From the NCBI RefSeq assembly GCF_900105675.1, contig NZ_LT629786.1, forward strand, positions 4,154,001 through 4,218,000: 64,000 bases of DNA, read 5' to 3'. Both the position numbers and the translations under genes were made by a program. The notes beneath the pieces were generated by a model. That model searched no databases, was not told the origin of the DNA, and was given only the letters and a program-made list of their open reading frames with translations. Of this stretch, positions 10,067 through 63,076 are shown one piece after another. This DNA comes from Pseudomonas synxantha (GTDB taxonomy: Bacteria > Pseudomonadota > Gammaproteobacteria > Pseudomonadales > Pseudomonadaceae). Position 1 is the stretch's first letter; each line of letters begins with the position of its first letter.

Positions 10067-10128
10067 TCTGGTCGTACTCATGCCCCTGACTTCTCTCTAT
10101 CCGGCATTGAGATGTGAGCGCGCAAAAG

Positions 10129-10338
10129 TCAGCTCATCATTTTCAAGGCACTGATCGGATTTTTAGTTTTTGCCCACCTTATCCAGCAGCGACCGGCTGC
10201 AAAAATCGCACCGAGGCGGAGTTTCATCTTGCGGCCAACACCCCAGATTTCCGCCACGTCCGTATTGCGCAAGACCCAGTTCCGCTTAATCGGGTCGGTG
10301 ATATTGGCCACCCCGGCCAGCATCAACTGAAGCCGCAC
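10129..10338 (-). pseudogene. umuC (DNA polymerase V) fragment
   Basis: A 69-codon frame contains GVANITDPIKRNWVLRNTDV followed by AEIWGVGRKMKLRLGAI. This is the inner region of UmuC with its helix-hairpin-helix-type motif. Nothing else of the gene is present: the reading runs into unrelated residues after about 10201 and begins abruptly near 10314. There is no start context. It is a scrap left by deletion, possibly of a phage-borne or chromosomal umuDC pair. Confidence 0.6.
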
Positions 10339-10364
10339 CCGCGGCGGCTTCTGTCGTCGGCCAG

Positions 10365-11018: not shown

Positions 11019-11045
11019 GATGTGGCCTTCCTTGTGTCCTGTGGG

Positions 11046-12101
11046 TTAACGCGCGGTGGCGTCAGCACTGAATGCGTGGATCTTGTCGACGATCTGGCGT
11101 GACGCCGTCCGGATTGCCGTGGCGGTATTGCCAGCGATGTGCGGCGTCAATTGCGCATTGGCAATAGCGGTCAATGGCGAGTCGAAGCGGTCTTTTTCAA
11201 GGGCAAAGGTATCGATGGCGACGGCTTTGATATGCCTGGGAAACTGGCGCATGAAGGCGGCCAACTGGTGTTCGTCGACGATCCCGCCGCGCGCGGTATT
11301 GATGAGGATTGATCCCTGGCGCATCTGCTGGAACTCGGCAGTGCCGAACAAGCCTCGGGTCTGCGGGGTGAGCGGTACGTGGATCGAGACGATGTTCGCC
11401 TCGGCCAGTAACTGTTCAAGACCTGCCCGTCGTTCAAGCCCAAGGCTGTGCGCCACCGGTTCGGTAAAACGTTCGGACCCGGTAGCGATCACCTTGATGC
11501 CCAGCGCCGCAGCCTTGCGCGCCACCTGCCGGGCAATGCTGCCGGTGCCCACCAGCCCAAGCGTCAGTTCGGCGTATTCGCAGGCAGGTGCCAAGGAGCC
11601 TTTTGCCCAATGGCCGTTGTGCGTTTTAGTGTTGTAGTCATCCAGGTCGCGCGACAGAAACAGCGCCTGGGCCACGACGTATTCGGCAACAGCGGCCGCG
11701 TTGGAGCCTGGGGTGTTGAGGATCGCCACACCACACTGCTCGCACGCCAGCCGATCAATATGATTGACCCCTGTGCCAGCCTGGGCAATGGCGCGCAGTG
11801 GCGTGGCCAACGCCGGCGAGGTGGCAGCGCGGATCAGGCCAGCGCCCAACGGGATGTTCAGGCGCGTCTTGAACACGCTGTAGCCCCCGGCCTGACTCAC
11901 GGCGGCAATAAAGCCAGGCTCGTCATGGCAGTTGATCTCGGCATAGTGAATGCGCGTGCCGTAGTGCTGCCGAATGCGCTCTTTGTCCGCGAAATAATGC
12001 AGGTTGAGGGTGACGCCCAGGCCCAGTTCAAGAAAGCGATCGGCTTCCTCAAACAGTAACGGCGGCCCAGGGGCATCCAGTATCAGGGTGGTAAATGCCA
12101 T
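11046..12101 (-). CDS. D-2-hydroxyacid dehydrogenase
   Basis: The 351-residue protein has the family signature: an NAD-binding loop LGLVGTGSIARQVARKAAA at about residue 183, INTARGGIVDEHQL with the catalytic arginine, a glutamate in IDTFALEKDRF and the catalytic histidine in LTPHIAGNTA. It should interconvert a 2-keto acid and a D-2-hydroxy acid with NAD(H). An additional 100-residue N-terminal half holds the substrate domain. It lies between the PEPC-like gene (64 bases upstream) and the aldolase gene, so a shared 2-keto acid or oxaloacetate-type metabolite is likely. The substrate is not deducible. Confidence 0.85.
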   Translation of the reverse strand: MAFTTLILDAPGPPLLFEEADRFLELGLGVTLNLHYFADKERIRQHYGTRIHYAEINCHDEPGFIAAVSQAGGYSVFKTRLNIPLGAGLIRAATSPALATPLRAIAQAGTGVNHIDRLACEQCGVAILNTPGSNAAAVAEYVVAQALFLSRDLDDYNTKTHNGHWAKGSLAPACEYAELTLGLVGTGSIARQVARKAAALGIKVIATGSERFTEPVAHSLGLERRAGLEQLLAEANIVSIHVPLTPQTRGLFGTAEFQQMRQGSILINTARGGIVDEHQLAAFMRQFPRHIKAVAIDTFALEKDRFDSPLTAIANAQLTPHIAGNTATAIRTASRQIVDKIHAFSADATAR

Positions 12102-12165
12102 ACAGTTGATCCTCTTGGAGGGTAGCGCCTGCCGATACCCAGGTTGCCCTGGGCATCGAGGTTAA

Positions 12166-49186: not shown

Positions 49187-51088
49187 ATGAAATGCGACCC
49201 CAATCAATATCGCGCCGCGCCGCCATCACTTGCCGTGAAGCCTCGTCTGATACGCCAACTCTTCCTGCCGCCGTTGATCATCGCCCTGATGGTCGGCTTG
49301 GGCTATATCGGCTTCTGGGTCAGTGAGTACTATGGCATCCGCACCCTCAGCGATAACGGCGAACGCCAGTTGGAACTGCACGCCCGCACCGTCGAAAGCG
49401 AACTGAGCAAATACACCTACCTGCCCAGCCTGTTGGAGCTCGAGTCGAGCGTTTCGCGGTTGCTGGCCGACCCGAACCAGGAAACCCGCACCACGGTCAA
49501 TGCTTACCTCGAGGGCCTGAACCGCCGCAGTCGCAGCCGGGCCATCTACGTGATGGACACCACCGGCCGCGTGCTGGCCACCAGTAACTGGCGCGATGCC
49601 GACAGTTACCAGGGCGAAGACCTGTCCTTCCGCGCCTATTTCCAGAATGCCGTACGCGGCCAGCCCGGCCGCTTCTATGGCATCGGCAGCACCAACGGCG
49701 AACCCGGCTATTACCTGGCCCATGGCTTGGAAGAGCATGGCAAGATTATCGGCGTCGCGGTGGTCAAGGTCCGCCTCGAGGCCTTGGAAGAACGCTGGCA
49801 ACGCGCCCGCCTCGAAGCTTTCGTAAGCGACGAGAACGGCATCATCATCCTCTCCAGCGACCCGGCCCGCCGCCTCAAGGCCGTACGCCCACTGAGCGAA
49901 GACACCAAGGAACGCCTGGCCCACAGCCTGCAATATTACTGGGCAACGCTCAACGAACTGCAGCCCCTGGCCCGTGAGCGCCTGAACGAAGGCACCGAGA
50001 AACTGACCTTCCCGGCCAACAGCGAAGTGGTCAACGACGAGCACGCCGTCAGCTACCTGGCGCAAACCCGTCCGCTCAACGACACACCGTGGCATTTCAC
50101 CCTGCTCACCCCGCTCAACGACCTGCGCCGTGCCGCAATCAACCAGGGCATCCTGGTAGCCGTTGCCTTTGGCCTGGTGGCCTTCTTGCTGATTGCCTGG
50201 AATGAACGGCGCAAAGTCATTGCCACCCGCCTCGCTGCCCGGGAAGCCCTGCAGGAAGCCAACAGCCAACTGGAACGGCGGATTGCCGAACGCACCGCCG
50301 ACCTGCGCGCCAGCAACGAACGGCTCAAGGGCCAGATCCGCGAACGGCGCCAGGCCGAAGAAACCCTGCGCCACGCCCAGGACGAACTGGTGCAGGCCGG
50401 CAAACTCGCGGCCATCGGCCAGATGTCCACCAGCATCGCCCACGAATTGAACCAACCGCTGGCGGCCCTGCGCACGCTGTCGGGCAACACGGTGCGTTTC
50501 CTCGAGCGCGGCGCCCTGGACACCGCCAGTACCAACCTCAAGGCCATCAACGAATTGATCGACCGCATGGGCCGCATCACCGCCAGCCTGCGCTCCTTTG
50601 CCCGACGCGGTGACGACCAGGGCGAAGCCAACCTCGGCAAGGCCGTGGACGCCGCGTTCCAGGTACTGGGCGCACGCCTGGACGGCCTGCCGTTGACCTT
50701 GCACCGTGACTTCATCAACGTCCAATTGCAGATCGACCAGACGCGCCTGGAGCAGATCCTGGTCAACCTGATCGGCAATGCCCTTGATGCGATGCAAGCG
50801 CAACCGGCACCGCAGCTATGGCTGGAAGGCCAGGTCGTCGATGGCAAATACCGCCTGCGGGTGCGTGACAACGGCCATGGCATCGACCCCGAGACGCGCA
50901 AGCATTTGTTCGAACCGTTCTTCACCACCAAGCCTGGCGAGCAGGGCCTGGGCCTGGGCCTGACGCTATCGGCCAGTCTCGCGGCGGCCACCGGCGGCAA
51001 TCTCGCCGTGGAGCACCCTGCCGGTGGTGGTACTGCCTTTGTCCTGAGCCTGCCGCTGGTGGGCACTCAACAAGCCGAGTCGACATGA
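49187..51088 (+). CDS. aauS: sensor histidine kinase AauS (DctB type)
   Basis: The 633-residue kinase has membrane helices near residues 20-45 and 305-330 enclosing a periplasmic double-Cache/PAS sensor. A coiled coil follows (ANSQLERRIAERTADLRASN), then the HisKA box STSIAHELNQPLAALRTLSG with His at about 419 and an ATPase domain (NLIGNALDAMQAQ, GQGLGLGLTLS). This is the DctB family. It senses acidic amino acids and phosphorylates AauR. Start ATG 49187 chosen over GTG 49184. Overlaps aauR by ATGA. Confidence 0.92.
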   Translation: MKCDPNQYRAAPPSLAVKPRLIRQLFLPPLIIALMVGLGYIGFWVSEYYGIRTLSDNGERQLELHARTVESELSKYTYLPSLLELESSVSRLLADPNQETRTTVNAYLEGLNRRSRSRAIYVMDTTGRVLATSNWRDADSYQGEDLSFRAYFQNAVRGQPGRFYGIGSTNGEPGYYLAHGLEEHGKIIGVAVVKVRLEALEERWQRARLEAFVSDENGIIILSSDPARRLKAVRPLSEDTKERLAHSLQYYWATLNELQPLARERLNEGTEKLTFPANSEVVNDEHAVSYLAQTRPLNDTPWHFTLLTPLNDLRRAAINQGILVAVAFGLVAFLLIAWNERRKVIATRLAAREALQEANSQLERRIAERTADLRASNERLKGQIRERRQAEETLRHAQDELVQAGKLAAIGQMSTSIAHELNQPLAALRTLSGNTVRFLERGALDTASTNLKAINELIDRMGRITASLRSFARRGDDQGEANLGKAVDAAFQVLGARLDGLPLTLHRDFINVQLQIDQTRLEQILVNLIGNALDAMQAQPAPQLWLEGQVVDGKYRLRVRDNGHGIDPETRKHLFEPFFTTKPGEQGLGLGLTLSASLAAATGGNLAVEHPAGGGTAFVLSLPLVGTQQAEST

Positions 51089-52434
51089 ATACAGACACTA
51101 CAACTGCGACCGACGACCTCACCGTGCTGATCGTCGAGGACGACCCCCATGTGCTGCTGGGCTGCCAGCAAGCCCTGGCGCTGGAAGACATTCCCAGCAT
51201 CGGTGTGGGCAGTGCCGAAGAGGCGCTGCATCGCATCGGCGAAAACTTCGCCGGCGTCGTCATCAGCGATATCCGCCTGCCGGGTATCGACGGCCTGGAA
51301 CTGCTGACCCGACTCAAGGCCCTGGATAAAAGCCTGCCGGTGGTACTGATCACCGGGCACGGCGACATCTCCATGGCGGTGGGTGCCATGCGCAATGGCG
51401 CCTACGACTTCATGGAAAAGCCCTTCTCCCCCGAACGCCTGGTGGAAGTCGCCCGCCGCGCCCTGGAGCAGCGCGGGCTGGCGCGGGAAGTCTGGTCGTT
51501 GCGTCGCCAACTGGCCGAGCGCGACTCGTTGGAAGGCCGCATCATTGGCCGCTCGCCGGCGATGCAAAACCTGCGCGAACTGATCGCCAACGTCGCCGAC
51601 ACCTCGGCCAACGTGCTGATCGAAGGCGAGACCGGCACCGGCAAGGAGTTGGTCGCGCGCTGCCTGCATGATTTCAGCCGGCGCCATTCCCACCAGTTCG
51701 TCGCCTTGAACTGCGGAGGCCTGCCGGAGAACCTGTTCGAAAGCGAAATTTTCGGCCACGAAGCCAACGCCTTTACCGGCGCCGGCAAGCGCCGCATCGG
51801 CAAGATCGAGCACGCCCACCAAGGCACACTCTTCCTCGATGAAGTGGAAAGCATGCCGATCAACCTGCAGATCAAACTGCTGCGTGTCCTACAGGAACGC
51901 ACCCTGGAACGCCTGGGTTCGAACCAGAGCGTGGCGGTGGATTGCCGGGTTATCGCCGCCACCAAGTCCGACCTCGACGAACTGAGCCGCGCCAGCCAGT
52001 TCCGCAGCGACCTGTACTACCGCCTCAATGTGGTGACCCTGGAACTGCCGCCCCTGCGCGAGCGGCGCGAAGACATCCTGCAGCTGTTCGAACACTTCCT
52101 GCAGCAATCGTCACTGCGCTTCGACCGCAGCGTCCCGGACCTCGACAACCAGACCTTGTCCAGCCTGATGAGCCACGACTGGCCGGGCAACGTGCGGGAG
52201 CTACGCAACGTCGCCGAACGCTTCGCCCTCGGCCTGCCCGCCTTCAAGAAAAGCGGCGCCGGCAGCGGTAACCAGGGGCTGGCCTTTACCGAGGCAGTGG
52301 AAGCCTTTGAGCGCAACCTGCTCAGCGACGCCCTGCAACGCAGCGGCGGCAACCTGACCCAGGCCAGCCAGGAACTGGGAATGGCCAAGACCACGTTGTT
52401 CGACAAGGTCAAGAAATACGGGTTGAGCCACTGA
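51085..52434 (+). CDS. aauR: sigma-54 response regulator AauR
   Basis: The 449-residue protein has a receiver domain (VLIVEDDPHVLLGCQQALAL, phospho-Asp about 62 in VVISDIRLPG), a sigma-54 AAA+ domain with EGETGTGKELVARCLHD and the GAFTGA-type loop written EANAFTGAGKRR, and a Fis-type helix-turn-helix end (GGNLTQASQELGMAKTTLFD). The first residue of the GAFTGA motif is altered to Asn-Ala-Phe, as in DctD-like members. It activates aatJQMP through the boxes at 45546-45590. Confidence 0.92.
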   Translation: MNTDTTTATDDLTVLIVEDDPHVLLGCQQALALEDIPSIGVGSAEEALHRIGENFAGVVISDIRLPGIDGLELLTRLKALDKSLPVVLITGHGDISMAVGAMRNGAYDFMEKPFSPERLVEVARRALEQRGLAREVWSLRRQLAERDSLEGRIIGRSPAMQNLRELIANVADTSANVLIEGETGTGKELVARCLHDFSRRHSHQFVALNCGGLPENLFESEIFGHEANAFTGAGKRRIGKIEHAHQGTLFLDEVESMPINLQIKLLRVLQERTLERLGSNQSVAVDCRVIAATKSDLDELSRASQFRSDLYYRLNVVTLELPPLRERREDILQLFEHFLQQSSLRFDRSVPDLDNQTLSSLMSHDWPGNVRELRNVAERFALGLPAFKKSGAGSGNQGLAFTEAVEAFERNLLSDALQRSGGNLTQASQELGMAKTTLFDKVKKYGLSH

Positions 52435-52772
52435 TGGACCTGTTTTTGAAGGCTGCCCTTGGCGCGGCGGTGGTATTGATCCTGGCGGCGCTGGCCAAGA
52501 CCAGGAACTATTACATCGCGGGGCTGGTGCCGCTGTTTCCGACCTTTGCGTTGATTGCCCATTACATCGTCGGCAAGGGCCGTTCGGTGGAAGATTTGAA
52601 GACCACCATCGTGTTTGGAATGTGGTCGATCATTCCGTATTTTGTGTATTTGGCGACCTTGTATGTGATGGTCGATCGGATGCGGCTTGAAGCGTCGCTG
52701 GCGGTAGCGGCGGTGGCGTGGTTGATGGCGGCGACGGTGCTGGTCAGCGTGTGGGTACGCTTCCATACCTGA
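52434..52772 (+). CDS. glpM: GlpM family membrane protein
   Basis: The 112-residue protein has four membrane helices (AALGAAVVLILAALA, IAGLVPLFPTFALIAHYIV, MWSIIPYFVYLATLYVMV and VAAVAWLMAATVLVSVWV) and belongs to the GlpM family, linked genetically to alginate production in P. aeruginosa. Its ATG shares a base with the aauR stop. In P. aeruginosa glpM follows glpD; here the whole aat-aau cluster lies between them. Confidence 0.85.
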   Translation: MDLFLKAALGAAVVLILAALAKTRNYYIAGLVPLFPTFALIAHYIVGKGRSVEDLKTTIVFGMWSIIPYFVYLATLYVMVDRMRLEASLAVAAVAWLMAATVLVSVWVRFHT

Positions 52773-52786
52773 CTCAACTCGTTCAA

Positions 52787-52882
52787 AAATGTGGGAGGGG
52801 GCTTGCCCCCGATAGCGGTGTGTCAGTCACCTAGTCTTCAACTGACCCACTGCCATCGGGGGCAAGCCCCCTCCCACATTTT
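52787..52882. repeat. REP pair
   Basis: ATGTGGGAGGGGGCTTGCCC and GGGGCAAGCCCCCTCCCACA inverted arms with a spacer; it sits between the convergent glpM and regulator genes. Confidence 0.85.
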
Positions 52883-52896
52883 TGGACCACAGTGTG

Positions 52897-54294
52897 TCAG
52901 CGGACGATCTTGTCGACTTGGATGCCGAGCTTTTTAAGGCGATACCAGAAGCTGCGCTCGGAAATCCCGATGCGCTGCGCCGCCGCGGCCTGAACGCCAT
53001 TGCTCTCCTGCAACGCCGCGAGGATGTAGGCCTTCTCCACCTCTGCCAACGCCGCATCCAGGTCCCGTGGCACCCCCGGCCCGTCGCTGAGAATCGCTGT
53101 CACCCCGCCCTCGCTCGGCTTGGAAGCAAACAGATACCCAGGCAAATCAATATCTTCGATCACCGGCGACGCCGCCACGATGGTCGCGCGCTCCACGCAG
53201 TTCTGCAGCTCGCGGATATTGCCCGGCCAGTGATATGCCGCCATGGCCTGTAACGCCTCGGGGCTGAAACCGGTAATGCGTTTGCCGGCAGTGGCGCTCA
53301 ACGTCTGGGCGAAGTGCCGGGCCAGGGGCGCGATGTCTTCCACGCGCTCGCGCAAGGCCGGCAGCGGAATCGGGAACACGTTGAGGCGGTAATACAGGTC
53401 TTCACGAAACTCTTTGTTGGCCACCGCATCCAGCAGGTTCTTGTTGGTGGCGGCGATCACCCGCACATCCACCTTGCGCTCCCGCGGGTCGCCCACCGGC
53501 TCGATCACCCGCTCTTGCAAGGCACGCAAAATCTTGGCCTGCAACGCCAGGGGCATATCCCCGACTTCGTCGAGAAACAGCGTGCCTTTGTCCGCCTGCA
53601 TGAAGCGCCCGACCCGGTCGGCCACGGCGCCGGTGAAGGCGCCTTTGCGATGCCCGAACATCTCGCTTTCCAGCAAACCTTCGGGAATCGCCGCGCAGTT
53701 GACCGCCACAAAGGGCTTGTCGGCCCGGCTGCCATGCTTGTGGATGGCGCGGGCGACCATTTCCTTGCCGGTGCCGCTTTCGCCGGTCAGCAGGATGGTC
53801 GCGCTGCTGTCACGTACCGAATCCACCGCCTGCAATACCTTTCGGAACGCCGGGCTGTCGCCGACCAGGCTGTCAAACTGTGCATGCTCGTCCAGTTCGG
53901 CGCGCATGCGTGCGTTGTCGCGCATGATGTCGCGAAATTGCAGGGCCTTGGCCACGGTGATGTCCAGCTCGTCGATATCGAACGGCTTGGCGATGTAGTC
54001 ATAGGCGCCGTTGCGCATCGATTGCACGGCATTTTTCACCGTGCTGTAGGCGGTCATAACGATCACCGGCACCTGGGGGTAGCGCAGCTTGATCTCGGCA
54101 AGCAGCGCCGGCCCGTCCATGCCCGGCATGCGCCAGTCGCTGATGACCAGGTCGATATCCTCATCCCCCAGCACCTTGAGGGCATGCAGGCCATTGCCCG
54201 CGCTGAACACCTGGATGCCGTTCTGGCTCAGGGCGGACGACAACAGGTCACACAGCTTGGGCTCGTCGTCCACCACTAATACGTTATGCGTCAT
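52897..54294 (-). CDS. NtrC-type sigma-54 response regulator (cluster regulator)
   Basis: Start at ATG 54294 (MTHNVLVVDDEPKLCDLLSS), which overlaps the kinase gene end; longer in-frame starts lie in that gene. The 465-residue protein has a receiver domain (Asp in LVISDWRMPGMDG), an AAA+ domain with LTGESGTGKEMVARAIHKHG and an intact KGAFTGAVADRVGRFMQADK, and a Fis-type end (AAAQRIGISERSFWYRLKKL). It should activate sigma-54 promoters, probably the one at 60322-60337 ahead of its own cluster, through the palindromes at 60400-60426. Confidence 0.9.
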   Translation of the reverse strand: MTHNVLVVDDEPKLCDLLSSALSQNGIQVFSAGNGLHALKVLGDEDIDLVISDWRMPGMDGPALLAEIKLRYPQVPVIVMTAYSTVKNAVQSMRNGAYDYIAKPFDIDELDITVAKALQFRDIMRDNARMRAELDEHAQFDSLVGDSPAFRKVLQAVDSVRDSSATILLTGESGTGKEMVARAIHKHGSRADKPFVAVNCAAIPEGLLESEMFGHRKGAFTGAVADRVGRFMQADKGTLFLDEVGDMPLALQAKILRALQERVIEPVGDPRERKVDVRVIAATNKNLLDAVANKEFREDLYYRLNVFPIPLPALRERVEDIAPLARHFAQTLSATAGKRITGFSPEALQAMAAYHWPGNIRELQNCVERATIVAASPVIEDIDLPGYLFASKPSEGGVTAILSDGPGVPRDLDAALAEVEKAYILAALQESNGVQAAAAQRIGISERSFWYRLKKLGIQVDKIVR

Positions 54295-56062
54295 GCCCAT
54301 CCTCATCTTCGCCGTCGTCTTCACCGTTAGCCGGAATGTACAGGCTGAACGTGGCGCCGGCATCTTTCTCGCTGGCGCATTCGATGCTGCCGTCATGACT
54401 TTCCATGATCGAATAGACTTTGGCCAGGCCCAGCCCGGTGCCCGACGCCTTGGTGGTGACGAATGGCGTGAAGATGCGCTCGACCATATCCGCGGCAATG
54501 CCCTGGCCGGTGTCGGCGATGCTGATCACTGTGTTGTCGCCGACGCTGCGGATCCCCAGGGTCAGGCGCCCGCCTTCGGGCATCGCATCGATAGCATTAA
54601 GAATCAGGTTGAGGCAGGCCTGCTTGAGCTGCTTGGCGTCGGCGTAGATGGTGGCGTCGGGCGCCTGGTCGTCAATCTGGGCATCGATGTTGTGGCTGCT
54701 CAGTTCCGGGCTGCAGAAACCGAGGATCTCTTCCACCAATGTGCGGGCCGGCTGCAACACGCGGATCGGTGGGTTGGGCTTGGCGAAGTCGAGGAACTCG
54801 GTGATCAGGTCGTTGATGCGGCTGACCTCGCTGATAACATATTCCAGATGGCGCTTGTCGGTATCCGCGAGGTCGGCGCGCCGGTGCAACAGTTGGGTGG
54901 CGGTCTTGATGATGCCCAGCGGGTTGCGGATTTCGTGGGCCAGGCCCATGGCGACTTCACCCAGGGCATGCAGGCGATCACGTCGGCGCAGTTGGGCTTC
55001 GAGGTGATGCAATTCACCCAGGCGCTCGGTCATATGGTTGAAGGTGCTGCTCAATTGCGCCAGTTCGTCACCGCCGCTGACCATCACGCGGTGCGTGTAA
55101 TTGCCCGAAATCACCGCGTCCACGCCCTCGGACAAGTCCCGCAGCGGCTTGGTCAGGCGCCGCGACACCAGCAACCCGGCTGCCAGGGACAGCGCCGAGC
55201 TGAGCAGGAAGATCAGCACGAACAGGTTGCTCTGGTTCACCAGCCCCACCAGGCTGGTATGGCGCAGCAGTCCGCTGAAGATCACCCCTTGCAGCTCGCC
55301 CGCATCGTTGAAGATCGGCCAATACAAGCCGCTGTACTGGTTGGTGAACTGCTCGCTGGGTTGTTTGGTACTGCGCAGTGCAGCCTCGACGTTTTTCGGG
55401 ATGCGCGACGGGTGGTTCTCGAAGCGCTGGGTGGAAAAAATTTCAGAAAAGCCTGCAGGGTTGGCCAGGTAAAGACGCAGGTCGAGGGAGTGCACATCGG
55501 CCACGCTGGTAAGGAAACTGCTATCCAGGTAGGTCGCCACCAACAGCAGGTAGTCAACGCCGTCACGGCTGGTTTCGAAGGTCGACACCACCAGGCCGGT
55601 GCTAACCCCGGCGACTTGCACGGTCTGCAGCACCGCGTTGCTGGTCAGGCTGATCTGCCTGACGATGTCATCGGCGGCCGTGCTGAACACCACTTTATGG
55701 TCACTGGTGCGAATCAGCGCTACCACGTCGATATCGGTAGCCTCGGCGATATCGGCGGTCAGCCGGTCATGCTTGGCGGCTTGTTTGGACGACGGCGGGC
55801 TGGTGTAGCGCAGGAACAGCTTGGCCATGCGCGCGTTGTCATGAAGGATGTCGCCGATCTCGTCCTTGACGATCTTGGTCGACTCTTGCAGCCAGATGCG
55901 TACGTTGCTGTCGAAAATCTGCGACAGCGTGGTGGCAGCCAGCTCGGCCGCGATCATGGTCGGAATAACGCTGACCAGCCAGAACGCCAGCACCAGCTTG
56001 CGCTGGACGCTCCAACGCGAAATGGCAAAGGGGCGGGCTTTCTGGCGGGTCTTGGTGATCAT
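54284..56062 (-). CDS. membrane sensor histidine kinase (cluster sensor)
   Basis: ATG 56062 overlaps the stop of the acyltransferase gene (ATGA). The 592-residue kinase has a membrane helix near residues 20-45 (LVLAFWLVSVIPTMIAAELA) and a periplasmic region of about 230 residues. A second helix (LFVLIFLLSSALSLAAGLLV), a HAMP domain, HisKA (ALGEVAMGLAHEIRNPLGII) and a GHKL ATPase (NLILNAIDAMPEGG, GTGLGLAKVYSIMESHDG) follow. The tail is very acidic (GEDDGEDEDGHDA). It is NtrB/ZraS-like; its signal is unknown. It is encoded with its regulator. Confidence 0.9.
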   Translation of the reverse strand: MITKTRQKARPFAISRWSVQRKLVLAFWLVSVIPTMIAAELAATTLSQIFDSNVRIWLQESTKIVKDEIGDILHDNARMAKLFLRYTSPPSSKQAAKHDRLTADIAEATDIDVVALIRTSDHKVVFSTAADDIVRQISLTSNAVLQTVQVAGVSTGLVVSTFETSRDGVDYLLLVATYLDSSFLTSVADVHSLDLRLYLANPAGFSEIFSTQRFENHPSRIPKNVEAALRSTKQPSEQFTNQYSGLYWPIFNDAGELQGVIFSGLLRHTSLVGLVNQSNLFVLIFLLSSALSLAAGLLVSRRLTKPLRDLSEGVDAVISGNYTHRVMVSGGDELAQLSSTFNHMTERLGELHHLEAQLRRRDRLHALGEVAMGLAHEIRNPLGIIKTATQLLHRRADLADTDKRHLEYVISEVSRINDLITEFLDFAKPNPPIRVLQPARTLVEEILGFCSPELSSHNIDAQIDDQAPDATIYADAKQLKQACLNLILNAIDAMPEGGRLTLGIRSVGDNTVISIADTGQGIAADMVERIFTPFVTTKASGTGLGLAKVYSIMESHDGSIECASEKDAGATFSLYIPANGEDDGEDEDGHDA

Positions 56063-57186
56063 CAGGTTTCGCTTATCGCAGCAGCCATGGCAGGGTCGGA
56101 ACGATCCGGTCGAATAAACAGTTTTACAAGCTTGAGCAAGCCGTTGACCAGCCGGTTGCGGTGGCGAAAGAACAGGCTGTTGCCCTGGAACTCGCACCCC
56201 AGGCGCAGTTTACTGGCATACCCGGCCTGGCCGCACTCGTACAGCGGGATTTTGTGTTGAATACAATAGTCGACATTGGTCAGCCAACTGCGAAAGTAGA
56301 GGTTGTATTCGCGGCTGAACTGGATGTCGTGTCCAAAGAACTTGTCCACCAGCCGATGCTCGTCCAGCAGGATCAGGTTGAACGCCACCAGGTGTTCGCC
56401 CACCCAGTAAAGAACACAGATCGCCCGCTCGTTGAGTTGTTCGAGCACTTGGGTGAAGTAACCGGCGGGCAGGCGCTCGAACTGCAGGTCCGCGCGCGTC
56501 AGCGTCGCTTCATACAGGCGCATGACCTCAGGCAGCACGTCATCGATATTACGGCGCCACTCGACCCGCGGCCCCGGTGCGCGCAGCTTGCGGCGCAGGT
56601 CCTTGCGCGTGGATTTGCCCAGCGAACCCAGGTACGCGTCCACCGAACCGTAGGGCAGCGGCAACACACCAGTCGGCAGACTCGGCATAGCTTGAAAGCC
56701 CGCGGCGCGGCAGCTATCGACCCAATCCGGGTCGTTGCTCGGCGCGTCCTTGACCGCCACCAACCCGATACCGAACTGATCGGCATCGCCACGCGCAGCC
56801 GCCAGCAACTGTTGCAGCAACAACGGGCGCCGGGCCTCGGGCACATGGCTGGCGACCCCGGCGTCACAGCGCTCAGCCACCGGCGAACCGATGGCGTATA
56901 ACGCCAGTTGCAAAACACCCGGCCACAGCCGGTCCAGGCGCTCGGTCAAGCGCTTGCCGGCCCCCGACACCGTGGTGTCGAGGCGATAATGGGTGATGAA
57001 CGCGGCAGCCACAGCCACCAGGGTTTGTTCCTCGTAGACCGCCAGGTAACGCCACTGAAAGTCATCGATGGCGGCGTTTTCCACGGCCAGGTAATAGTCC
57101 CAATCCTCCAGGGCACCGGGAAAACAGTCGTTCCAGGCATCGCGCTGGATGGCGCGGATGGTCGGGAAGGCTTGGGTGGTTAGCAC
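56062..57186 (-). CDS. GNAT-fold acyltransferase (FemAB / BioF2-like)
   Basis: The 374-residue protein starts at GTG 57186. The first half binds an unknown ligand (AVENAAIDDFQWRYLAVYEE), and the second half has STRKDLRRKLRAPGPRVEWR, then VLYWVGEHLVAFNLILLDEH, the pattern of large GNAT transferases of the Acetyltransf_6 group. These attach acyl or aminoacyl groups to amines in lipids, peptidoglycan or secondary metabolites. It comes after the hydrolase gene, with a REP between, and overlaps the kinase start. Substrate unknown. Confidence 0.75.
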   Translation of the reverse strand: MLTTQAFPTIRAIQRDAWNDCFPGALEDWDYYLAVENAAIDDFQWRYLAVYEEQTLVAVAAAFITHYRLDTTVSGAGKRLTERLDRLWPGVLQLALYAIGSPVAERCDAGVASHVPEARRPLLLQQLLAAARGDADQFGIGLVAVKDAPSNDPDWVDSCRAAGFQAMPSLPTGVLPLPYGSVDAYLGSLGKSTRKDLRRKLRAPGPRVEWRRNIDDVLPEVMRLYEATLTRADLQFERLPAGYFTQVLEQLNERAICVLYWVGEHLVAFNLILLDEHRLVDKFFGHDIQFSREYNLYFRSWLTNVDYCIQHKIPLYECGQAGYASKLRLGCEFQGNSLFFRHRNRLVNGLLKLVKLFIRPDRSDPAMAAAISET

Positions 57187-57220
57187 AGATTGCCCTTATT
57201 TCTATGGCGAACGCCGATCC

Positions 57221-57328
57221 AATGTGGGAGCTGGCTTGCCTGCGATGCAGGCGCCTCGGTACGTCAGGCAGACTGCAGTGATGCCATCGCGGCGGTGCGG
57301 CGATCCGACAAGCCCGCTCCCACATTGA
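57221..57328. repeat. REP pair reaching into the hydrolase 3' end
   Basis: AATGTGGGAGCTGGCTTGCC and CAAGCCCGCTCCCACATTG are inverted REP cores. The right arm lies inside the hydrolase coding region, so its last codons are REP-derived. Confidence 0.75.
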
Positions 57329-58172
57329 CCTGCGTTGGCTTGAACACCGCATGCTGCCCGATAAACTCGGCACTCAACTCGATCACCCGTCGGTATTGCA
57401 GGTCGACGGTGATCATGTGGTAGCAGTTATCCAGCAGGATCTTGGTCACCGGACCGCCGAGGTGGCGCTCCACGTAGTCGGCGTTCCAGCGGCTGGTGAT
57501 GTCATCCTCAATGGAGTGCAACACCAGCGCCGGTACCTTGACCTGGGGCATGCGTTTCTTGACCACGGCGTTCATACGGTGCAACTCGCGCACTGTGATG
57601 CCTTCCATGGTCAGCAACCCCGCCTCGCTGCTTTCCCCTTCCTTCATCTGCCGCTCGACGATGGCTCGCAGGCGCTGGTTCTTGATGCCGTAGGGCGGCT
57701 TCTCTTCGAAGCGGCAGATGTGCACGCCGAACGGAATCTTCATCAGCAACGGCGTGAGGAACGCCAACTTGTTAATGCTCCAGCCGTCGTACTTCAAGGT
57801 GGTGGAATACATCAGCAGCCCGGCGACTTGCCCTGGGTGTTCAGATGCGACATACATCGACATCACCGCCCCCATGGACAAACCACCGACGAACACCTGC
57901 TCGTGGCGTTGCCTGACCTGTACGAAGGTCTTGCGCACCCCTTCGTACCAGTCCAGCCAACCAGTGGCTTGCAGGTCGTTGTTGTCGCCGCAGTGCCCGG
58001 CCAACGTCGGCACATACACCGTGCAGTTACCCGCCTTGGCCAGGCCCTTGGCGACCTGGCGCAACTCCGTCGGGGTGCCGGTCAGGCCGTGGATCAACAG
58101 GATCCCGACCGGACCTTCACCGAGTACGAAACCGGCATCGCCTTCACCGAGGTCAATACCGTGCGCACTCAC
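57264..58172 (-). CDS. alpha/beta hydrolase (carboxylesterase-like)
   Basis: The start is GTG 58172, overlapping the aminotransferase stop (GTGA). The 302-residue protein has the oxyanion strand GILLIHGLTGTPTELRQVAK, the nucleophile elbow VFVGGLSMGAVMSMY, an acid region HSIEDDITS and the catalytic histidine in NCYHMITVD. This is the Est30-like esterase / monoacylglycerol-lipase pattern. Its last 20 or so residues are encoded by a REP element. It probably hydrolyses or transfers an ester in the pathway of this cluster. Confidence 0.87.
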   Translation of the reverse strand: MSAHGIDLGEGDAGFVLGEGPVGILLIHGLTGTPTELRQVAKGLAKAGNCTVYVPTLAGHCGDNNDLQATGWLDWYEGVRKTFVQVRQRHEQVFVGGLSMGAVMSMYVASEHPGQVAGLLMYSTTLKYDGWSINKLAFLTPLLMKIPFGVHICRFEEKPPYGIKNQRLRAIVERQMKEGESSEAGLLTMEGITVRELHRMNAVVKKRMPQVKVPALVLHSIEDDITSRWNADYVERHLGGPVTKILLDNCYHMITVDLQYRRVIELSAEFIGQHAVFKPTQVNVGAGLSDRRTAAMASLQSA

Positions 58173-59563
58173 CGCTGGGTCGCTCGCACCAGCAGTTGCT
58201 CGAGCAGCTTGAGGCCCAGGTCGATTTCCGGGTAGCTGATTTCAAGGGACGGGGCCAGGGTGATCACGTTCTTGTAGTAACCGCCCACATCGAGGATCAG
58301 CCCGAGTTTCTGGCCGTCTACGACCATGTCGCCTTTCATGCCTTCCTCGACCATGTAGTCCAGAGTCGCCTTGTCCGGAGTGAAGCCGTCCGGCCCGCAG
58401 ATTTCGCAGCGCAGCGCCAGGCCCAGGCCATCGACGTCGCCGATGATCGGGAAGCGTTTCTGCAGGTCTTGCAAGCCTTCCAGGAAGTATTTGCCCTTGG
58501 CCATGACCATCGCGCCGTAGTCGACTTCGCTGGTCATCTTGAACATCTCCAGGCCCACCGCCGTACCCAACGGGTTGGAGGCGAAGGTGGAGTGGGTCGA
58601 ACCTGGCGGGAAGATCTTCGGGTTGATCAACTCTTCACGGGCCCAGATGCCCCCCAGTGGGTTGAGACCATTGGTCAATGCCTTGCCGAACACGATCACG
58701 TCCGGTTGTACGTCGAAATGTTCGATCGACCACAGCTTACCGGTGCGATAGAAGCCCATCTGGATTTCGTCGGACACCATCAGGATGCCGTGCTGGTCCA
58801 GCACATGCTTGAGTTCGCGATAGAAGTTCATCGGCGGGATCACGTAGCCGCCGGTGCCCTGGATCGGCTCGACGTAGAACGCAGCGTATTCGCTCTGGCC
58901 GACTTTCGGGTCCCACACGCCGTTGTATTCGGTCTCGAACAGGCGGGCGAATTGCTGCACGCAGTGGCTGCCGTACTCTTCCTTGGTCATGCCTTTCGGA
59001 CCACGGAAGTGGTATGGAAACGGGATAAATTGCGCACGCTCGCCGAAGTGGCCGTAGCGACGACGGTAGCGGTAGCTGGAGGTGATCGACGAGGCGCCGA
59101 GGGTACGCCCGTGGTAGCCGCCTTCGAAGGCGAACATCAGGCTCTTGCCGTTGGTGGCGTTACGTACCACTTTCAGGGAATCTTCGATGGACTGCGAACC
59201 GCCGACGTTGAAGTGCACGCGACCGTCGAGGCCGAACTTGTTCTTGGCGTCGACCGCAATCATTTCCGACAGCTCGATCTTGCCTTTGTGCAGGTACTGG
59301 CTGGCGATTTGCGGCAGGGTGTCGATCTGCTTTTTCAGCGCATTGTTCAGCCGCGGGTTGGCGTAGCCGAAGTTGACCGCCGAGTACCACATTTGCAGGT
59401 CGAGGTAGGCCTGGTCTTCGGTGTCCCACACATAGGAGCCTTCGCAGCGGCTGAAAATGCGCGGCGGCTCGATGTAGTGAACAGTGTCGCCGTAGGAGCA
59501 GTACTTGGCTTCCTTATCCAGCAGAACCTGGTCTTCGGCGGTAGCGATACGGATATCAGACAT
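58169..59563 (-). CDS. class III PLP-dependent aminotransferase
   Basis: The 464-residue enzyme has the class III marks FEGGYHGRTLGASSITSSYR, a Glu-Pro-rich AAFYVEPIQGTGGYVIPP, the Asp of MVSDEIQMGFYRTG that binds the pyridine nitrogen and the PLP lysine in VIVFGKALTNGLNPLGG. Such enzymes move an amino group between an omega-amino or diamine compound (or an amino aldehyde) and a keto acid. It overlaps the phosphatase gene by 8 bases and the hydrolase by 4. Substrate unknown. Confidence 0.92.
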   Translation of the reverse strand: MSDIRIATAEDQVLLDKEAKYCSYGDTVHYIEPPRIFSRCEGSYVWDTEDQAYLDLQMWYSAVNFGYANPRLNNALKKQIDTLPQIASQYLHKGKIELSEMIAVDAKNKFGLDGRVHFNVGGSQSIEDSLKVVRNATNGKSLMFAFEGGYHGRTLGASSITSSYRYRRRYGHFGERAQFIPFPYHFRGPKGMTKEEYGSHCVQQFARLFETEYNGVWDPKVGQSEYAAFYVEPIQGTGGYVIPPMNFYRELKHVLDQHGILMVSDEIQMGFYRTGKLWSIEHFDVQPDVIVFGKALTNGLNPLGGIWAREELINPKIFPPGSTHSTFASNPLGTAVGLEMFKMTSEVDYGAMVMAKGKYFLEGLQDLQKRFPIIGDVDGLGLALRCEICGPDGFTPDKATLDYMVEEGMKGDMVVDGQKLGLILDVGGYYKNVITLAPSLEISYPEIDLGLKLLEQLLVRATQR

Positions 59564-60260
59564 GATGGAAGAGTTCCTGATTGTCAGCAGAGGTATTGAA
59601 GGTGGTGGCGTTGGCGGCGATGCCCTGTGGCAGCTTGGCCAGCAATGCAGGCACTTCGGCGAAGGTGTCGAAGCGCGCGTGAGGTATCTGGTTGGCGACG
59701 CAATATTCGGCGAGGCTGCCTTTGGCGAACACGAAGTCGGCGGTGGAAGCCACGCACATGTCCGACTTGCCGTCGCCGATCACCAGCACGCGCTTGTTGC
59801 GCGGGGTGGATTTGCACTTGCAGTTGCCGGACGCGGCGCGGCACGCATCGCTGGCATAGGGGAAGTCGATGCGCCAGCTGTTGTGGTCGACCTGGCGCAG
59901 GCGGTTGGCGAGGATCGGCAGCAGGGTCACGTAATGGCGCGACAGGATGCGGGCGATGCCTTGTTCGATGCCGTCGCTGACCACTTCAATGGTCGCGCCC
60001 AGGTCCATGACGTGATCGACGAAATCCGGAAAGTCCGGGTCGATCTCGACGCTGTCGAAATACGCCAGCAGTTCACTTGGGGTCGCCTTGATCAGCGCCA
60101 GTTGGCGGCTCAGGCATTCGCGTGAACCGATGTGCCCATCCAGCCATTCCTGTTCGATGGTTTCCCACTCGGGGCCGGCGAAGCGTTGGAGGACGTTGTC
60201 GATGACATCCGTGGGAGTAATGGTCCCATCGAAGTCACACACGATATGCCAGTGGATCAT
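59556..60260 (-). CDS. MtnX-like HAD phosphatase
   Basis: ATG 60260 (MIHWHIVCDFDGTITPTDVI) follows AAGGAAAGG; the longer in-frame start covers the sigma-54 promoter area and is rejected. The 234-residue protein has motif I DFDGTIT, motif II VVSDG and motif III/IV VIGDGKSDMC of the HAD-IB phosphatases, related to phosphoserine and methylthio-ketose phosphatases. A short cysteine pair (NCKCK) is inserted before motif III. First gene of the sigma-54 cluster. Confidence 0.9.
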   Translation of the reverse strand: MIHWHIVCDFDGTITPTDVIDNVLQRFAGPEWETIEQEWLDGHIGSRECLSRQLALIKATPSELLAYFDSVEIDPDFPDFVDHVMDLGATIEVVSDGIEQGIARILSRHYVTLLPILANRLRQVDHNSWRIDFPYASDACRAASGNCKCKSTPRNKRVLVIGDGKSDMCVASTADFVFAKGSLAEYCVANQIPHARFDTFAEVPALLAKLPQGIAANATTFNTSADNQELFHHV

Positions 60261-60321
60261 CTGCCTTTCCTTTAGGTAAAGGGCCTTGGAGAGTGCGCTG
60301 TGTGCGCTTGCCAAGGGATAG

Positions 60322-60337
60322 AGCAGGGACTGTGCCA
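60322..60337 (-). promoter_or_regulatory. sigma-54 promoter of the HAD-aminotransferase cluster
   Basis: On the minus strand TGGCAC-AGTCC-CTGCT fits TGGCAC-N5-TTGCW with one mismatch, about 62 bases before the HAD start codon. Confidence 0.65.
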
Positions 60338-60381
60338 ACTGGCCAAAGCCCAGCGGGGCTGGGGGTTTTCAGGATTCTCAA

Positions 60382-60426
60382 AAGACAATGTGTCTTGGGA
60401 GCTACAATTTTTGTAGCTTGCTACAA
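60382..60426. promoter_or_regulatory. palindromic upstream sites (enhancer candidates)
   Basis: Three alternating half-sites form AGCTACAA-TTT-TTGTAGCT (60400-60418) and TTGTAGC-TT-GCTACAA (60411-60426); AAGACA-ATG-TGTCTT (60382-60396) lies beside them. They are 45-105 bases upstream of the sigma-54 promoter, the place where an NtrC-type activator would bind, and also upstream of the divergent mipA-like gene. Confidence 0.55.
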
Positions 60427-60499
60427 ACAAGATGAGTGCTTGCGCGGAGGCGAGGGTTTGCGCGTTCATGCGCGCCTGTCCACCTTAGGAAAACGCACC

Positions 60500-61270
60500 A
60501 TGTCCAAGCTCACATCTGCTGTATTCACCGGTCTACTTGGGCTGTGCAGCGCTTCCAGTGCCGCGTGGGCGGACGGCATCAGCGGCGACGTGGGCGCAGG
60601 CCTGAGCTATCAGCCCCATGACCCCAGCGGCAGCCGCTACGAAACCCGGCCCGTGCCCTACCTGGACCTGGACTGGGGAGACGTCAGCCTGAGTACCGAT
60701 GACGGCCTGACCTGGAGCGCGCTGAACAGCCACGGCATCACCGCCGGCCCCTATATCAACTACCTGGCGGGGCGTACTTCCAACGGCGAGTTGCAGGGTT
60801 TGCGCAACGTGTCGGACATGGCCGAGGCCGGCGGTTTTATCCAGTACGCCCCGGCCGATTTCTGGCGCGTATACGCGCAACTGGGCCAGGCCGTGGGCGG
60901 CGGGCATTCCCAGAGTGGCACCCTGGGCAAAGTCGGCGGTGAATTGGGCTACCCGCTGGGTGGCGGGATTATCGGCAGCAGTGGCCTGGTGGCGCATTTT
61001 ACCGATGCACGCCAGGCCAACACCTACTTCGGCGTTGACAGCAACGAAGCCGCCGCCACCGGCTTTCGGTCCTACAACGCCAGCGGCGGTTTCCAGAACG
61101 TGACGCTGAGCCAAAGCTTCGCCTTCCCCCTGGCGCCCCACTGGTCCCTGCTGACCAGTGCCAGCTGGGTGCACCTGGTGGGCTCGGCAGCCAAGAGCAG
61201 TATCGTCAAGCAGGCTGGCGACGTGAATCAGGGGCAAGTGCAGACGGCGATCAGCTACACCTTCGATTAA
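60500..61270 (+). CDS. MipA/OmpV family outer-membrane protein
   Basis: ATG 60500 (MSKLTSAVFTGLLGLCSASS) begins a signal peptide ending AAWA. The 256-residue protein has the MipA/OmpV pattern: GDVGAGLSYQPHDPSGSRYE, VPYLDLDWGDVSLS, alternating beta strands and the final QVQTAISYTFD ending in an aromatic residue plus acid, as in barrel proteins. Family members act as MltA-interacting scaffolds or are induced by antimicrobial peptides or metals. It diverges from the sigma-54 cluster and may share its upstream sites. Confidence 0.85.
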   Translation: MSKLTSAVFTGLLGLCSASSAAWADGISGDVGAGLSYQPHDPSGSRYETRPVPYLDLDWGDVSLSTDDGLTWSALNSHGITAGPYINYLAGRTSNGELQGLRNVSDMAEAGGFIQYAPADFWRVYAQLGQAVGGGHSQSGTLGKVGGELGYPLGGGIIGSSGLVAHFTDARQANTYFGVDSNEAAATGFRSYNASGGFQNVTLSQSFAFPLAPHWSLLTSASWVHLVGSAAKSSIVKQAGDVNQGQVQTAISYTFD

Positions 61271-61317
61271 AGCCAGAGCAAAAAGCAGGTATAGATCAGC
61301 CTGATGTAAGAAAATCA

Positions 61318-61350
61318 AAATGTGGGAGGGAGCAAGCCCCTCCCACATTT
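61318..61350. repeat. REP element hairpin
   Basis: AAATGTGGGAGGG and CCCTCCCACATTT arms between convergent genes. Confidence 0.75.
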
Positions 61351-61377
61351 CGAACTGAGTCCGACATACCGGCCCAC

Positions 61378-61782
61378 TCAGCTCTCCTCCCCCTCCGCCA
61401 ACAACACAATTCCCGCCACAATCACCATCACGCCCACCCAATGCAACAGGCTGATGTGCTCCCCCAGTCCCAACCACGACCCGAGCAACACTGCCACGAA
61501 CACCAGCGAGCTCAAGGGAAACGCCAAGGACAAACTGCTGCGCCGCAGGATCAGCATCCACACAAAAAACGCACCGAGATAACTGGCAATCGCCGCCAGG
61601 ATCCCCGTGTTGCGCGCCACGTCAGCCAGCCACTGCCAGGTGAAATCCATTTGGCCCAACTGATCACCGGCCACCTTGGTAAACAACTGCCCGGCGCTTT
61701 CGGTCGCGATCAACAGCGCCCACAACACCAGGGTGCCGAGGCGTCCATGCAACCAGCCCGTATCGATAGTCTGCGTCGTCAT
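61378..61782 (-). CDS. SMR/EamA-type membrane protein, second of a pair
   Basis: ATG 61782 overlaps the stop of the first SMR gene (ATGA); the longer frame is a shadow of that gene. The 134-residue protein has four membrane helices (VLWALLIATESAGQLFTKVA, NTGILAAIASYLGAFFVWML, LSLAFPLSSLVFVAVLLGSW, WVGVMVIVAGIVLLAEG). Two such half-size proteins usually form a heterodimeric exporter or lipid-sugar flippase of the ArnE/ArnF kind. It ends the three-gene operon. Confidence 0.8.
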   Translation of the reverse strand: MTTQTIDTGWLHGRLGTLVLWALLIATESAGQLFTKVAGDQLGQMDFTWQWLADVARNTGILAAIASYLGAFFVWMLILRRSSLSLAFPLSSLVFVAVLLGSWLGLGEHISLLHWVGVMVIVAGIVLLAEGEES

Positions 61783-62159
61783 GCCTGGCCCCCCGCAATC
61801 GCCACCAACATCACGCCCAAGGTAATCACCAGCGTGCCCACCCAACGCCTCGGGCTGACGGTTTCCTTGAGCACTACCCTGCCCGCCAGTACCACCAGGC
61901 AATACGCCAATGCCGCCAGCGGAAACAACAGGCTCAACGGCGCACGGGACAACGCCTCGAGCCAGACGAAAAACTCGATGACATAGGCCCCGACCCCGGC
62001 CCAGAGCAGCGGCGCATTCAATACCTGGCCCCAGAATGCGCGCAGGCGAAAGCCGCCATCGAGCTGGGGCAAACGGTCTACGCCCAACTTGAAACACAAC
62101 TGGCCAATCACATCGAGAACGATGGAAAAGGCCAGCAACAACACCACGGTCAGGGTCAT
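61779..62159 (-). CDS. SMR/EamA-type membrane protein, first of a pair
   Basis: The 126-residue protein has four membrane helices (LTVVLLLAFSIVLDVIGQLC, LLWAGVGAYVIEFFVWLEAL, LSLLFPLAALAYCLVVLAGR, WVGTLVITLGVMLVAIAGG). The two proteins share the S/T-L-x-F-P-L-x-x-L motif of EamA-type units. It overlaps the arginase-fold gene (ATGA) and the second SMR gene, so all three are coupled. Confidence 0.8.
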   Translation of the reverse strand: MTLTVVLLLAFSIVLDVIGQLCFKLGVDRLPQLDGGFRLRAFWGQVLNAPLLWAGVGAYVIEFFVWLEALSRAPLSLLFPLAALAYCLVVLAGRVVLKETVSPRRWVGTLVITLGVMLVAIAGGQA

Positions 62160-63076
62160 GGGAACAGCTCCTCAAACAGGTCGATCAAGGCTTCATTGGT
62201 CGCGGCATTGCGCTGCAGATCCTGCGCACTCCAGCGCTCCGGTGGCGGCTGGTCGGACTTGGCTTCCCAGCGCTTGAACGCGTTGCTGAACGCCGGCACA
62301 GCGAACTCACCGCACACATCGATACCAATGATGCGTTTATGCACCGCCAACGCCCGCAGAGCCTGGAGCAAATGGGTCAGGCGCATGCCGCCCTGGTCCC
62401 AGTTGGTGGCAGCGTCTTCGCTGGCCAGCACATCTTTGTCGATGGTGATCCAGATCGCTTCGGTGGGCAGGCTGGCGATCATCTGGTCGAGGAACGCTGC
62501 CCAGTCCAGGTCCGCCAGGTTGCGCCAATGCAGGTGGTTTTCCTGTTGCTGGTGGCCGGCACCGTCGCCGACCCGGCCCCAGACTTTCGACGGCGGATGC
62601 TGCCAGGGAAACAACTGCAAGTGGCCGCGCTTGAGGGCACCGAGGTTGCCGCCGCGCAATTGCGGGTTATGCAGGTCATCACTGCACGGGCCGAGGGTCA
62701 CGATGCGTTTGATCGCCGGCATCTTCAGCGCACGGTTGACCCACGAACCACAGTGGCGTTTGGGTGCAAAGCGCACCCAGTCGGGGTGGTTGTCGAAGTG
62801 GATCAGGCTGATGGGTTCTTTCAGGTCGGCCAAAAAGGCCGGTGTGAGATGGTGATAGTCGCCGGAGCCGACAAACAGGATCTCCGGGCGCGCGTCCATG
62901 GGCCGGGGCCGTTGGGCCAGGCGCGCAACAAAGCGCTTCCAGGTTTTTTCGGTGGCCCACAAACGCAGTTTCGGGCCCAGGTCCAGCAGATCAAGGCGCG
63001 TGGCCCGGCCGATGGCCAACTGCCGGGCAATCGGGGCCTGGCCGGTGAGGCTGTGGTCGAGGTCAAGGATATTCAA
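62156..63076 (-). CDS. arginase/ureohydrolase-fold protein
   Basis: The 306-residue protein has the metal-binding pattern of ureohydrolases in altered form: FVGSGDYHHLTPAFLADL for the GGDHS motif, LIHFDNHPDWVRFA for Asp-x-His-x-Asp, and IWITIDKDVLASEDAATN for Ser-x-Asp-x-Asp. The metal ligands seem present, so a Mn-dependent amidine or guanidine hydrolase is possible. Only TTG 63076 serves as start, with a G-rich stretch upstream. It leads the operon with the SMR pair. Substrate unknown. Confidence 0.78.
   Translation of the reverse strand: MNILDLDHSLTGQAPIARQLAIGRATRLDLLDLGPKLRLWATEKTWKRFVARLAQRPRPMDARPEILFVGSGDYHHLTPAFLADLKEPISLIHFDNHPDWVRFAPKRHCGSWVNRALKMPAIKRIVTLGPCSDDLHNPQLRGGNLGALKRGHLQLFPWQHPPSKVWGRVGDGAGHQQQENHLHWRNLADLDWAAFLDQMIASLPTEAIWITIDKDVLASEDAATNWDQGGMRLTHLLQALRALAVHKRIIGIDVCGEFAVPAFSNAFKRWEAKSDQPPPERWSAQDLQRNAATNEALIDLFEELFP

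Follow-up and report, generated by a model that had tools for sequence, protein, structure and literature searches.

A two-component-controlled gene cassette of Pseudomonas synxantha that may make and move an amine-bearing envelope molecule

In this study, we analyzed 64,000 nucleotides of the Pseudomonas synxantha genome (contig NZ_LT629786.1, positions 4,154,001 to 4,218,000; hereafter the window), in which six coupled minus-strand genes occupy positions 52897-60260. In order, they encode a HAD-type phosphatase (HAD), a class III aminotransferase (AT), an alpha/beta hydrolase (ABH), a FemAB-like/GNAT transferase (GNAT), a sensor histidine kinase, and an NtrC-type response regulator. We propose, with a probability of about 0.4, that this two-component-controlled cassette serves the synthesis and movement of an envelope molecule that is amine-bearing, acylated, and thus lipid-like. 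Each part is of a known family, and envelope modification under two-component control is known as a kind, but the combination appears to be undescribed. As the initial annotation had supposed, we found no description of this gene set in the open literature, from which subscription papers that might hold one are set apart.

The six genes form a conserved unit in Pseudomonas. A GNAT match at E ≤ 1e-3 was found in 62 of 249 Pseudomonas genomes, and 58 of these matches had at least 63% identity over nearly the full length. The same six-gene order was present in all 15 GNAT-bearing loci that were fetched (L021-L035; L numbers denote loci and G numbers genomes), and L036 carried the other five genes with GNAT absent. 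A profile search with AT, from which the best 80 of 581 relatives were taken and which is hence weighted to Pseudomonas, included 62 Pseudomonas loci, 54 of them at least 20 kb long. Among these 54 long loci, 41 had all six genes in order, 12 had five without GNAT (the kinase match of L113, one of these, is split in two), and L056 had only HAD, AT, and ABH. The cassette is also carried by the biocontrol bacterium P. protegens FD6 (L098). The single conserved unit claimed in the initial annotation was thereby borne out; the GNAT, counted there among the six genes, is present in most units but optional. In addition, the MipA gene was divergent in 53 of the 54 loci, both SMR genes were nearby in 44, and the ureohydrolase was nearby in 33. 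GNAT occurred with the ureohydrolase in 33 loci and without it in 7, the ureohydrolase never occurred without GNAT, and 14 loci had neither; these counts ignore kinship, and L069, which has a GNAT match but no intact GNAT frame, was scored as lacking GNAT.

The same families cluster outside Pseudomonas. In L048, from another class of the same phylum, the order on one strand is HAD-AT-ureohydrolase-SMR-hydrolase-GNAT-SMR-DUF2147-kinase-regulator-MipA. A run of this kind was found in four Bosea-type loci (L128, L133-L135), three of which have a MipA match. Because of this single-run clustering, the genes at 60500-63076 (MipA, two SMR proteins, and ureohydrolase) are, on the sequence evidence, part of the same set as the six genes, and the description of the unit as self-contained had to be given up. 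The order HAD-AT-ureohydrolase-SMR-hydrolase-GNAT-SMR recurs in Rhizobium, Phyllobacterium, Sinorhizobium, and Agrobacterium, all but the last of which also have a fatty acid desaturase, and the cassette families are found in other orders in Bartonella, Wohlfahrtiimonas, Oleiagrimonas, and Xanthomonas. When 35 diverse loci (the window included) were compared by profile, HAD, AT, and ABH occurred together in 30. The exceptions were L131; L161; L170, which is cut by its contig end; L172, whose stretch starts inside ABH; and L180, in which only AT was found. As far as such profiles tell, HAD-aminotransferase-hydrolase is the core of the cassette. All 21 of the 35 loci with GNAT also carry the ureohydrolase; L181 has the ureohydrolase and no GNAT in its stretch, but its genome carries the GNAT elsewhere, at the edge of contig L049.

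Table 1. Features of the cassette and its surroundings in the window
Feature	Position	Strand	Basis
MtnX-like HAD-IB phosphatase (HAD), first gene	59556-60260	-	TIGR01489, TIGR01488 above cut-offs
Class III pyridoxal phosphate (PLP) aminotransferase (AT)	58169-59563	-	Pfam/NCBIfam
S33/MGL-like alpha/beta hydrolase (ABH), monoacylglycerol-lipase-like	57264-58172	-	by sequence
FemAB-like/GNAT transferase (FemAB_like/Acetyltransf_6)	56062-57186	-	Pfam; modelled tandem-GNAT fold
Sensor histidine kinase: HAMP, HisKA, HATPase_c	54284-56065	-	Pfam
NtrC-type sigma-54 response regulator, GAFTGA intact	52897-54294	-	Pfam; sequence
-24/-12 sigma-54-type promoter TGGCACAGTCCCTGCT before HAD	60337-60322	-	motif; recurs across Pseudomonas loci
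Perfect TTGTAGC dyad TTGTAGCAAGCTACAA, activator-site-like	60426-60411	-	motif
Third TTGTAGC half-site	60407-60401	-	motif
MipA/OmpV-family protein, divergent; outer-membrane barrel by family	60500-61270	+	Pfam
SMR/EamA-type small membrane protein 1, ArnF/ArnE-like	61378-61770	-	below cut-offs, 38.5 and 35.4 bits
SMR/EamA-type small membrane protein 2, ArnF-like	61779-62159	-	below cut-offs
Arginase-family (ureohydrolase-fold) enzyme	62156-63076	-	family, modelled fold
Second sigma-54-type promoter TGGCCCGCCCCTTGCA before ureohydrolase-SMR operon	63154-63139	-	motif, conserved

The coordinates, Pfam, and NCBIfam placed the gene order, the overlaps, the repetitive extragenic palindromic (REP) sequence in the one gap, the intact GAFTGA, the promoter, and the TTGTAGC dyad as first described. 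The overlaps are 8, 4, 4, and 11 bases, and the ABH-GNAT gap is 77 bases. The REP-like sequence in this gap has an inverse copy in the 3′ end of the ABH gene. The pair, at 57210-57330, spans the gene end and the gap, and thus the last ABH residues are REP-encoded. The listed HAD start, TTG 60338, sits on the promoter; ATG 60260 is the better start.

The regulator has a sigma-54 interaction domain besides its GAFTGA, and the promoter and upstream half-sites are conserved. Promoter matches were rated by an ad hoc -24/-12 score with a threshold of 17. Within 400 bases before HAD this score was reached in 78 of 79 Pseudomonas loci, compared with 69 of 790 shuffles, and the match lies at a near-constant distance across the loci. 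TTGTAGC half-sites also precede HAD in 78 of 79 loci; in the window, the dyad and third half-site (60426-60401) are located 64-89 bases above the first base of the promoter. These motifs argue for sigma-54-type control by the NtrC-type regulator with its own kinase, as first proposed. The ureohydrolase operon has a promoter of the type TGGCCCG-NNN-CTTGCA, and the score was reached in 48 of 48 loci, compared with 25 of 480 shuffles. TTGTAGC half-sites were found before this operon in only 2 of the 48 loci, and a dyad there was dropped as a candidate. The 79 and 48 loci are not independent, as some of L021-L036 probably duplicate genomes of other loci (L023/L082). The 6.84-Mb genome of the strain contains a single perfect dyad. 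With up to two mismatches there are 20 sites, one of them exact, compared with 11 for a backwards-pattern control, and on these counts a TTGTAGC regulon beyond the cassette locus was dropped.

Outside Pseudomonas, a score of at least 17 was found near HAD in all 10 scanned loci counted as NtrC-type, in a range of -400 to +80; 400-base shuffles of the Pseudomonas HAD regions reach 17 in 9%. Four of the 10 loci are Bosea-type relatives, and L176, which also has an NtrC-type regulator, was left out of the scan. The type was assigned by Pfam in four (L117, L133, L164, and L174) and by sequence similarity in the rest, and the regulator of L181 is on contig L049. A CTACA...TGTAG dyad was present in four of the 10 (L048, L181, L117, and L118). 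Among the three scanned loci without an NtrC-type regulator, L122 reached 17, L127 16, and L130 15.5. Furthermore, of 10 neighbouring regulators classified by Pfam, five were NtrC-type and five, from other lineages, OmpR-type. Judged from these domains, sensing is retained across lineages while the regulator type switches.

One could suppose that the genes are mere neighbours and not one pathway. The GNAT, ureohydrolase, and SMR genes are variably present, and a separate promoter serves the ureohydrolase-SMR operon, where 46 of 48 loci lack a TTGTAGC half-site. However, the same families cluster in differing orders across classes. In 398 genomes from the phylum, AT was found in 25 and GNAT in 24, and 22 had both, not always on the same contig; the limits were E 1e-150 for AT and about 1e-15 or better for GNAT (G430 at 1.1e-15), the latter set after seeing the list, which left out six genomes with weaker GNAT matches (G642, G600, G607, G279, G354, and G408). 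GNAT is thus also in 22 of the 25 AT-bearing genomes. In addition, ABH is fused to the N-terminal half of GNAT in L175, where the fusion runs to the contig end, and in L176, where it stops after the GNAT half. Since the clustering is conserved, the supposition is already disfavoured, and we hold it to be highly improbable.

The AT is the most conserved protein of the set, with 74% identity to the L048 protein and 74-78% from Pseudomonas to Bartonella, Oxalobacter, and Wohlfahrtiimonas. Its homologues bear generic names; in a wide search, at least 5948 of 8000 scored candidates passed E 1e-80, and these may include other class III enzymes. An Arg-rich stretch at AT residues 165-176 is invariant in six aligned sequences. 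This stretch could hold phosphate, and ABH resembles monoacylglycerol lipases, which would fit a serinol-type head group: AT would aminate dihydroxyacetone phosphate, HAD would dephosphorylate it, the transferase would acylate it, and the lipase-like ABH would act on acyl-serinol. In RtxA of rhizobitoxine synthesis, serinol formation is likewise reported to involve transamination of a phosphorylated small molecule and dephosphorylation (PMC3222319, accessible part). However, RtxA does both steps in one domain, fused to a sulfhydrylase-like domain, AT is likened to it by presumed reaction, and the substrate is a guess based solely on gene content. We therefore consider serinol quite unlikely. 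As for HAD, the identity as the methionine-salvage MtnX was ruled out by the low equivalog score (93.9 against a cut-off of 303.2 bits for TIGR03333); HAD is also below the PRK09552 cut-off and exceeds only those of TIGR01489 and TIGR01488, which are broader.

Fold comparison with Foldseek placed the GNAT model in the Fem/MprF class of tandem-GNAT folds, with the double GNAT of FemABX/MprF; identity to such structures in the fold alignments is 10-18%. No sequence relative of GNAT was found in PDB (best E 0.49 with the single sequence and 0.26 with the profile), and fold comparison alone helped. The VIA lists are second looks at the Foldseek matches, and absence from them excludes nothing. K326 is invariant among the aligned homologues and is a candidate for the counterpart of Lys305 of FemX, the catalytic lysine according to the accessible part of PMC12945691. 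The modelled fold makes amino-acid transfer as possible as acylation, so the acylation first proposed may stand, but only as one of two equal options. The ureohydrolase has the fold of the arginase superfamily, and the residues matching the binuclear arginase metal ligands are invariant. The second SMR protein scored 57.1 against 99 bits for ArnF and 37.2 against 92 for ArnE, below both NCBIfam cut-offs.

The wider neighbourhoods include lipid-related genes. Beside or near HAD-AT, 9 of the 35 loci have a FabF-like ketosynthase and 8 have an acyl carrier protein; these loci come from Xanthomonas, Oleiagrimonas, Bosea (L133), and further genomes. A cyclopropane fatty acid (CFA)-type synthase was present in four (two Nevskia loci, L122, and L176), a fatty acid desaturase in three, and a DegT-type aminotransferase in 11. 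The earlier claim of small-molecule or lipid chemistry is supported. TolC, HlyD-type, and ABC genes adjoin the cassette: annotation shows them in Xanthomonas and Agrobacterium, and sequence clustering shows them in several other loci. They would suit a secreted product that diffuses, be it a metabolite or a signal (an amine carrying an acyl or aminoacyl group), exported by the SMR pair, and elsewhere by ABC/HlyD/TolC; the Fem-type fold is also reported in antibiotic pathways (9wqx; PMC12945691, in the part seen). Nevertheless, Pseudomonas, Bosea, and most rhizobial runs have no such exporter and carry a MipA/OmpV gene instead, and we regard a secreted product as possible but somewhat unlikely.

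From the gene set, its co-conservation, the conserved promoter, and the predicted folds, we infer the following signal, reactions, product, and flipping step for an envelope molecule. The kinase would sense an envelope or chemical signal and phosphorylate the NtrC-type regulator, which would bind the TTGTAGC dyad and open the sigma-54 promoter. AT would add an amino group to a small carbonyl compound, HAD would take the phosphate off, and the Fem/MprF-like transferase would acylate or aminoacylate the amine. ABH may trim or recycle the acylated form, and the ureohydrolase-fold enzyme may work on the product or substrate of the transferase. The ArnE/ArnF-like SMR pair would flip or export the molecule, with MipA in the outer membrane. 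MipA of P. aeruginosa is reported to bind polymyxins and to help ParRS, and a two-component system to adjoin mipA in most loci screened by those authors (PMC10936184, accessible part). This parallel makes an envelope-acting compound plausible as the signal, no more. A detailed version is an inducible envelope aminolipid whose amino-alcohol head group comes from AT and HAD. The transferase would charge this head group from aminoacyl-tRNA (e.g., with arginine), the ureohydrolase would convert the guanidine to an amine (e.g., ornithine), turnover would depend on the lipase-like enzyme, and the SMR pair would flip the lipid. All these details together are distinctly unlikely to be right.

Several points weigh against an envelope molecule. 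Its substrate and product are hypothetical. No ureohydrolase is nearby in 7 of the 40 long Pseudomonas loci with GNAT, and in several genomes of other classes (G333, G356, G384, and G428) the GNAT homologue is on a different contig from AT. Some loci lack the GNAT, ureohydrolase, or SMR genes, and therefore the product may differ between loci or the core may have another function. No TTGTAGC dyad precedes the ureohydrolase operon, which leaves its co-regulation with the six genes a conjecture. Furthermore, class III aminotransferases serve many pathways, and nutrient use is a frequent target of local sigma-54 two-component systems. The latter would also agree with catabolism or detoxification, in which the kinase senses an amine or acyl compound, AT, HAD, and the hydrolase degrade it, and its detoxification or expulsion falls to the transferase and SMR pair. 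Many catabolic pathways use class III transaminases and S33 hydrolases, and the ureohydrolase fold suits guanidine breakdown. However, no importer or dehydrogenase was recognised among the genes recurring beside the core, and the acyl carrier protein and ketosynthase beside HAD-AT indicate synthesis. Breakdown is thus unlikely.

Among known systems, arn (pmr) with PmrAB/ParRS shares with the cassette two-component control, an aminotransferase, paired small membrane proteins of ArnE/ArnF type, and the envelope. However, no sugar enzyme or glycosyltransferase is among the window genes searched, the regulator is NtrC-type, and AT is class III, whereas the aminotransferase of arn is ArnB-type. We likened the cassette to arn/pmr in its working and do not count it as a member, because the SMR proteins are below the ArnE/F cut-offs. 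The predicted tandem-GNAT fold is shared with MprF/FemABX, but the cassette GNAT is a separate protein without the membrane part of MprF. In the gvg cluster of P. fluorescens WH6, which makes formylaminooxyvinylglycine (FVG), the class III aminotransferase GvgH is reported to be needed for an amine metabolite (PMC2997014 and PMC8067088, in the parts seen). That cluster has a carbamoyltransferase, a formyltransferase, LysE exporters, and a MocR-type regulator; neither transferase is among the genes searched at 51085-63076. Membership in the gvg/FVG cluster was dropped for this difference in gene set, judged from gene content and not from the sequence of GvgH. RtxA and gvg are analogies only.

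Several further observations concern the surroundings and homologues. A second inverted REP-like pair lies at 52800-52880, between the regulator and a GlpM-family gene (52434-52772) that is convergent with the six-gene unit. A second sigma-54 regulator adjoins at 51085-52434, with its own kinase upstream, and reads NAFTGA, not GAFTGA. The GlpM gene and second regulator border the regulator end of the cassette in many Pseudomonas and the ureohydrolase operon in other species; therefore the surrounding gene order was rearranged. The L056 stretch (9232-12261, P. libanensis DSM 17149) is a second copy with only HAD, AT, and ABH. Its AT is listed at 100% identity to the window AT, and the strain's full unit (L065) at 98%. 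This copy is near genes that read, by eye, as 2-aminoethylphosphonate aminotransferase and phosphonoacetaldehyde hydrolase. In L161, a plasmid of Bartonella sp. HY406, the AT, GNAT, and arginase-like genes are plasmid-borne, and a phosphonoacetaldehyde hydrolase gene about 8 kb off is the second phosphonate neighbour, perhaps by chance. L102 (5457-6710, P. putida 700447) is a second, diverged GNAT homologue with 35-38% identity to that of the window, inside the ureohydrolase-SMR operon. Distant GNAT homologues (24-30% identity) occur in other contexts in L037-L040 and L050-L055, of which L037 and L038 are from Pseudomonas without the cassette GNAT.

The partner genes stayed with AT across classes, among many bacteria of soil, plants, and gut, despite the change in regulator type, which is a mark of a real pathway, and the cassette offers a short gene list for direct lipidomics. 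If the detailed aminolipid version were true, it would stand beside arn and MprF as a parallel way of modifying lipids, spread across Proteobacteria. Should the cassette act on the envelope, plant- and gut-associated bacteria would have one more inducible system of surface chemistry.

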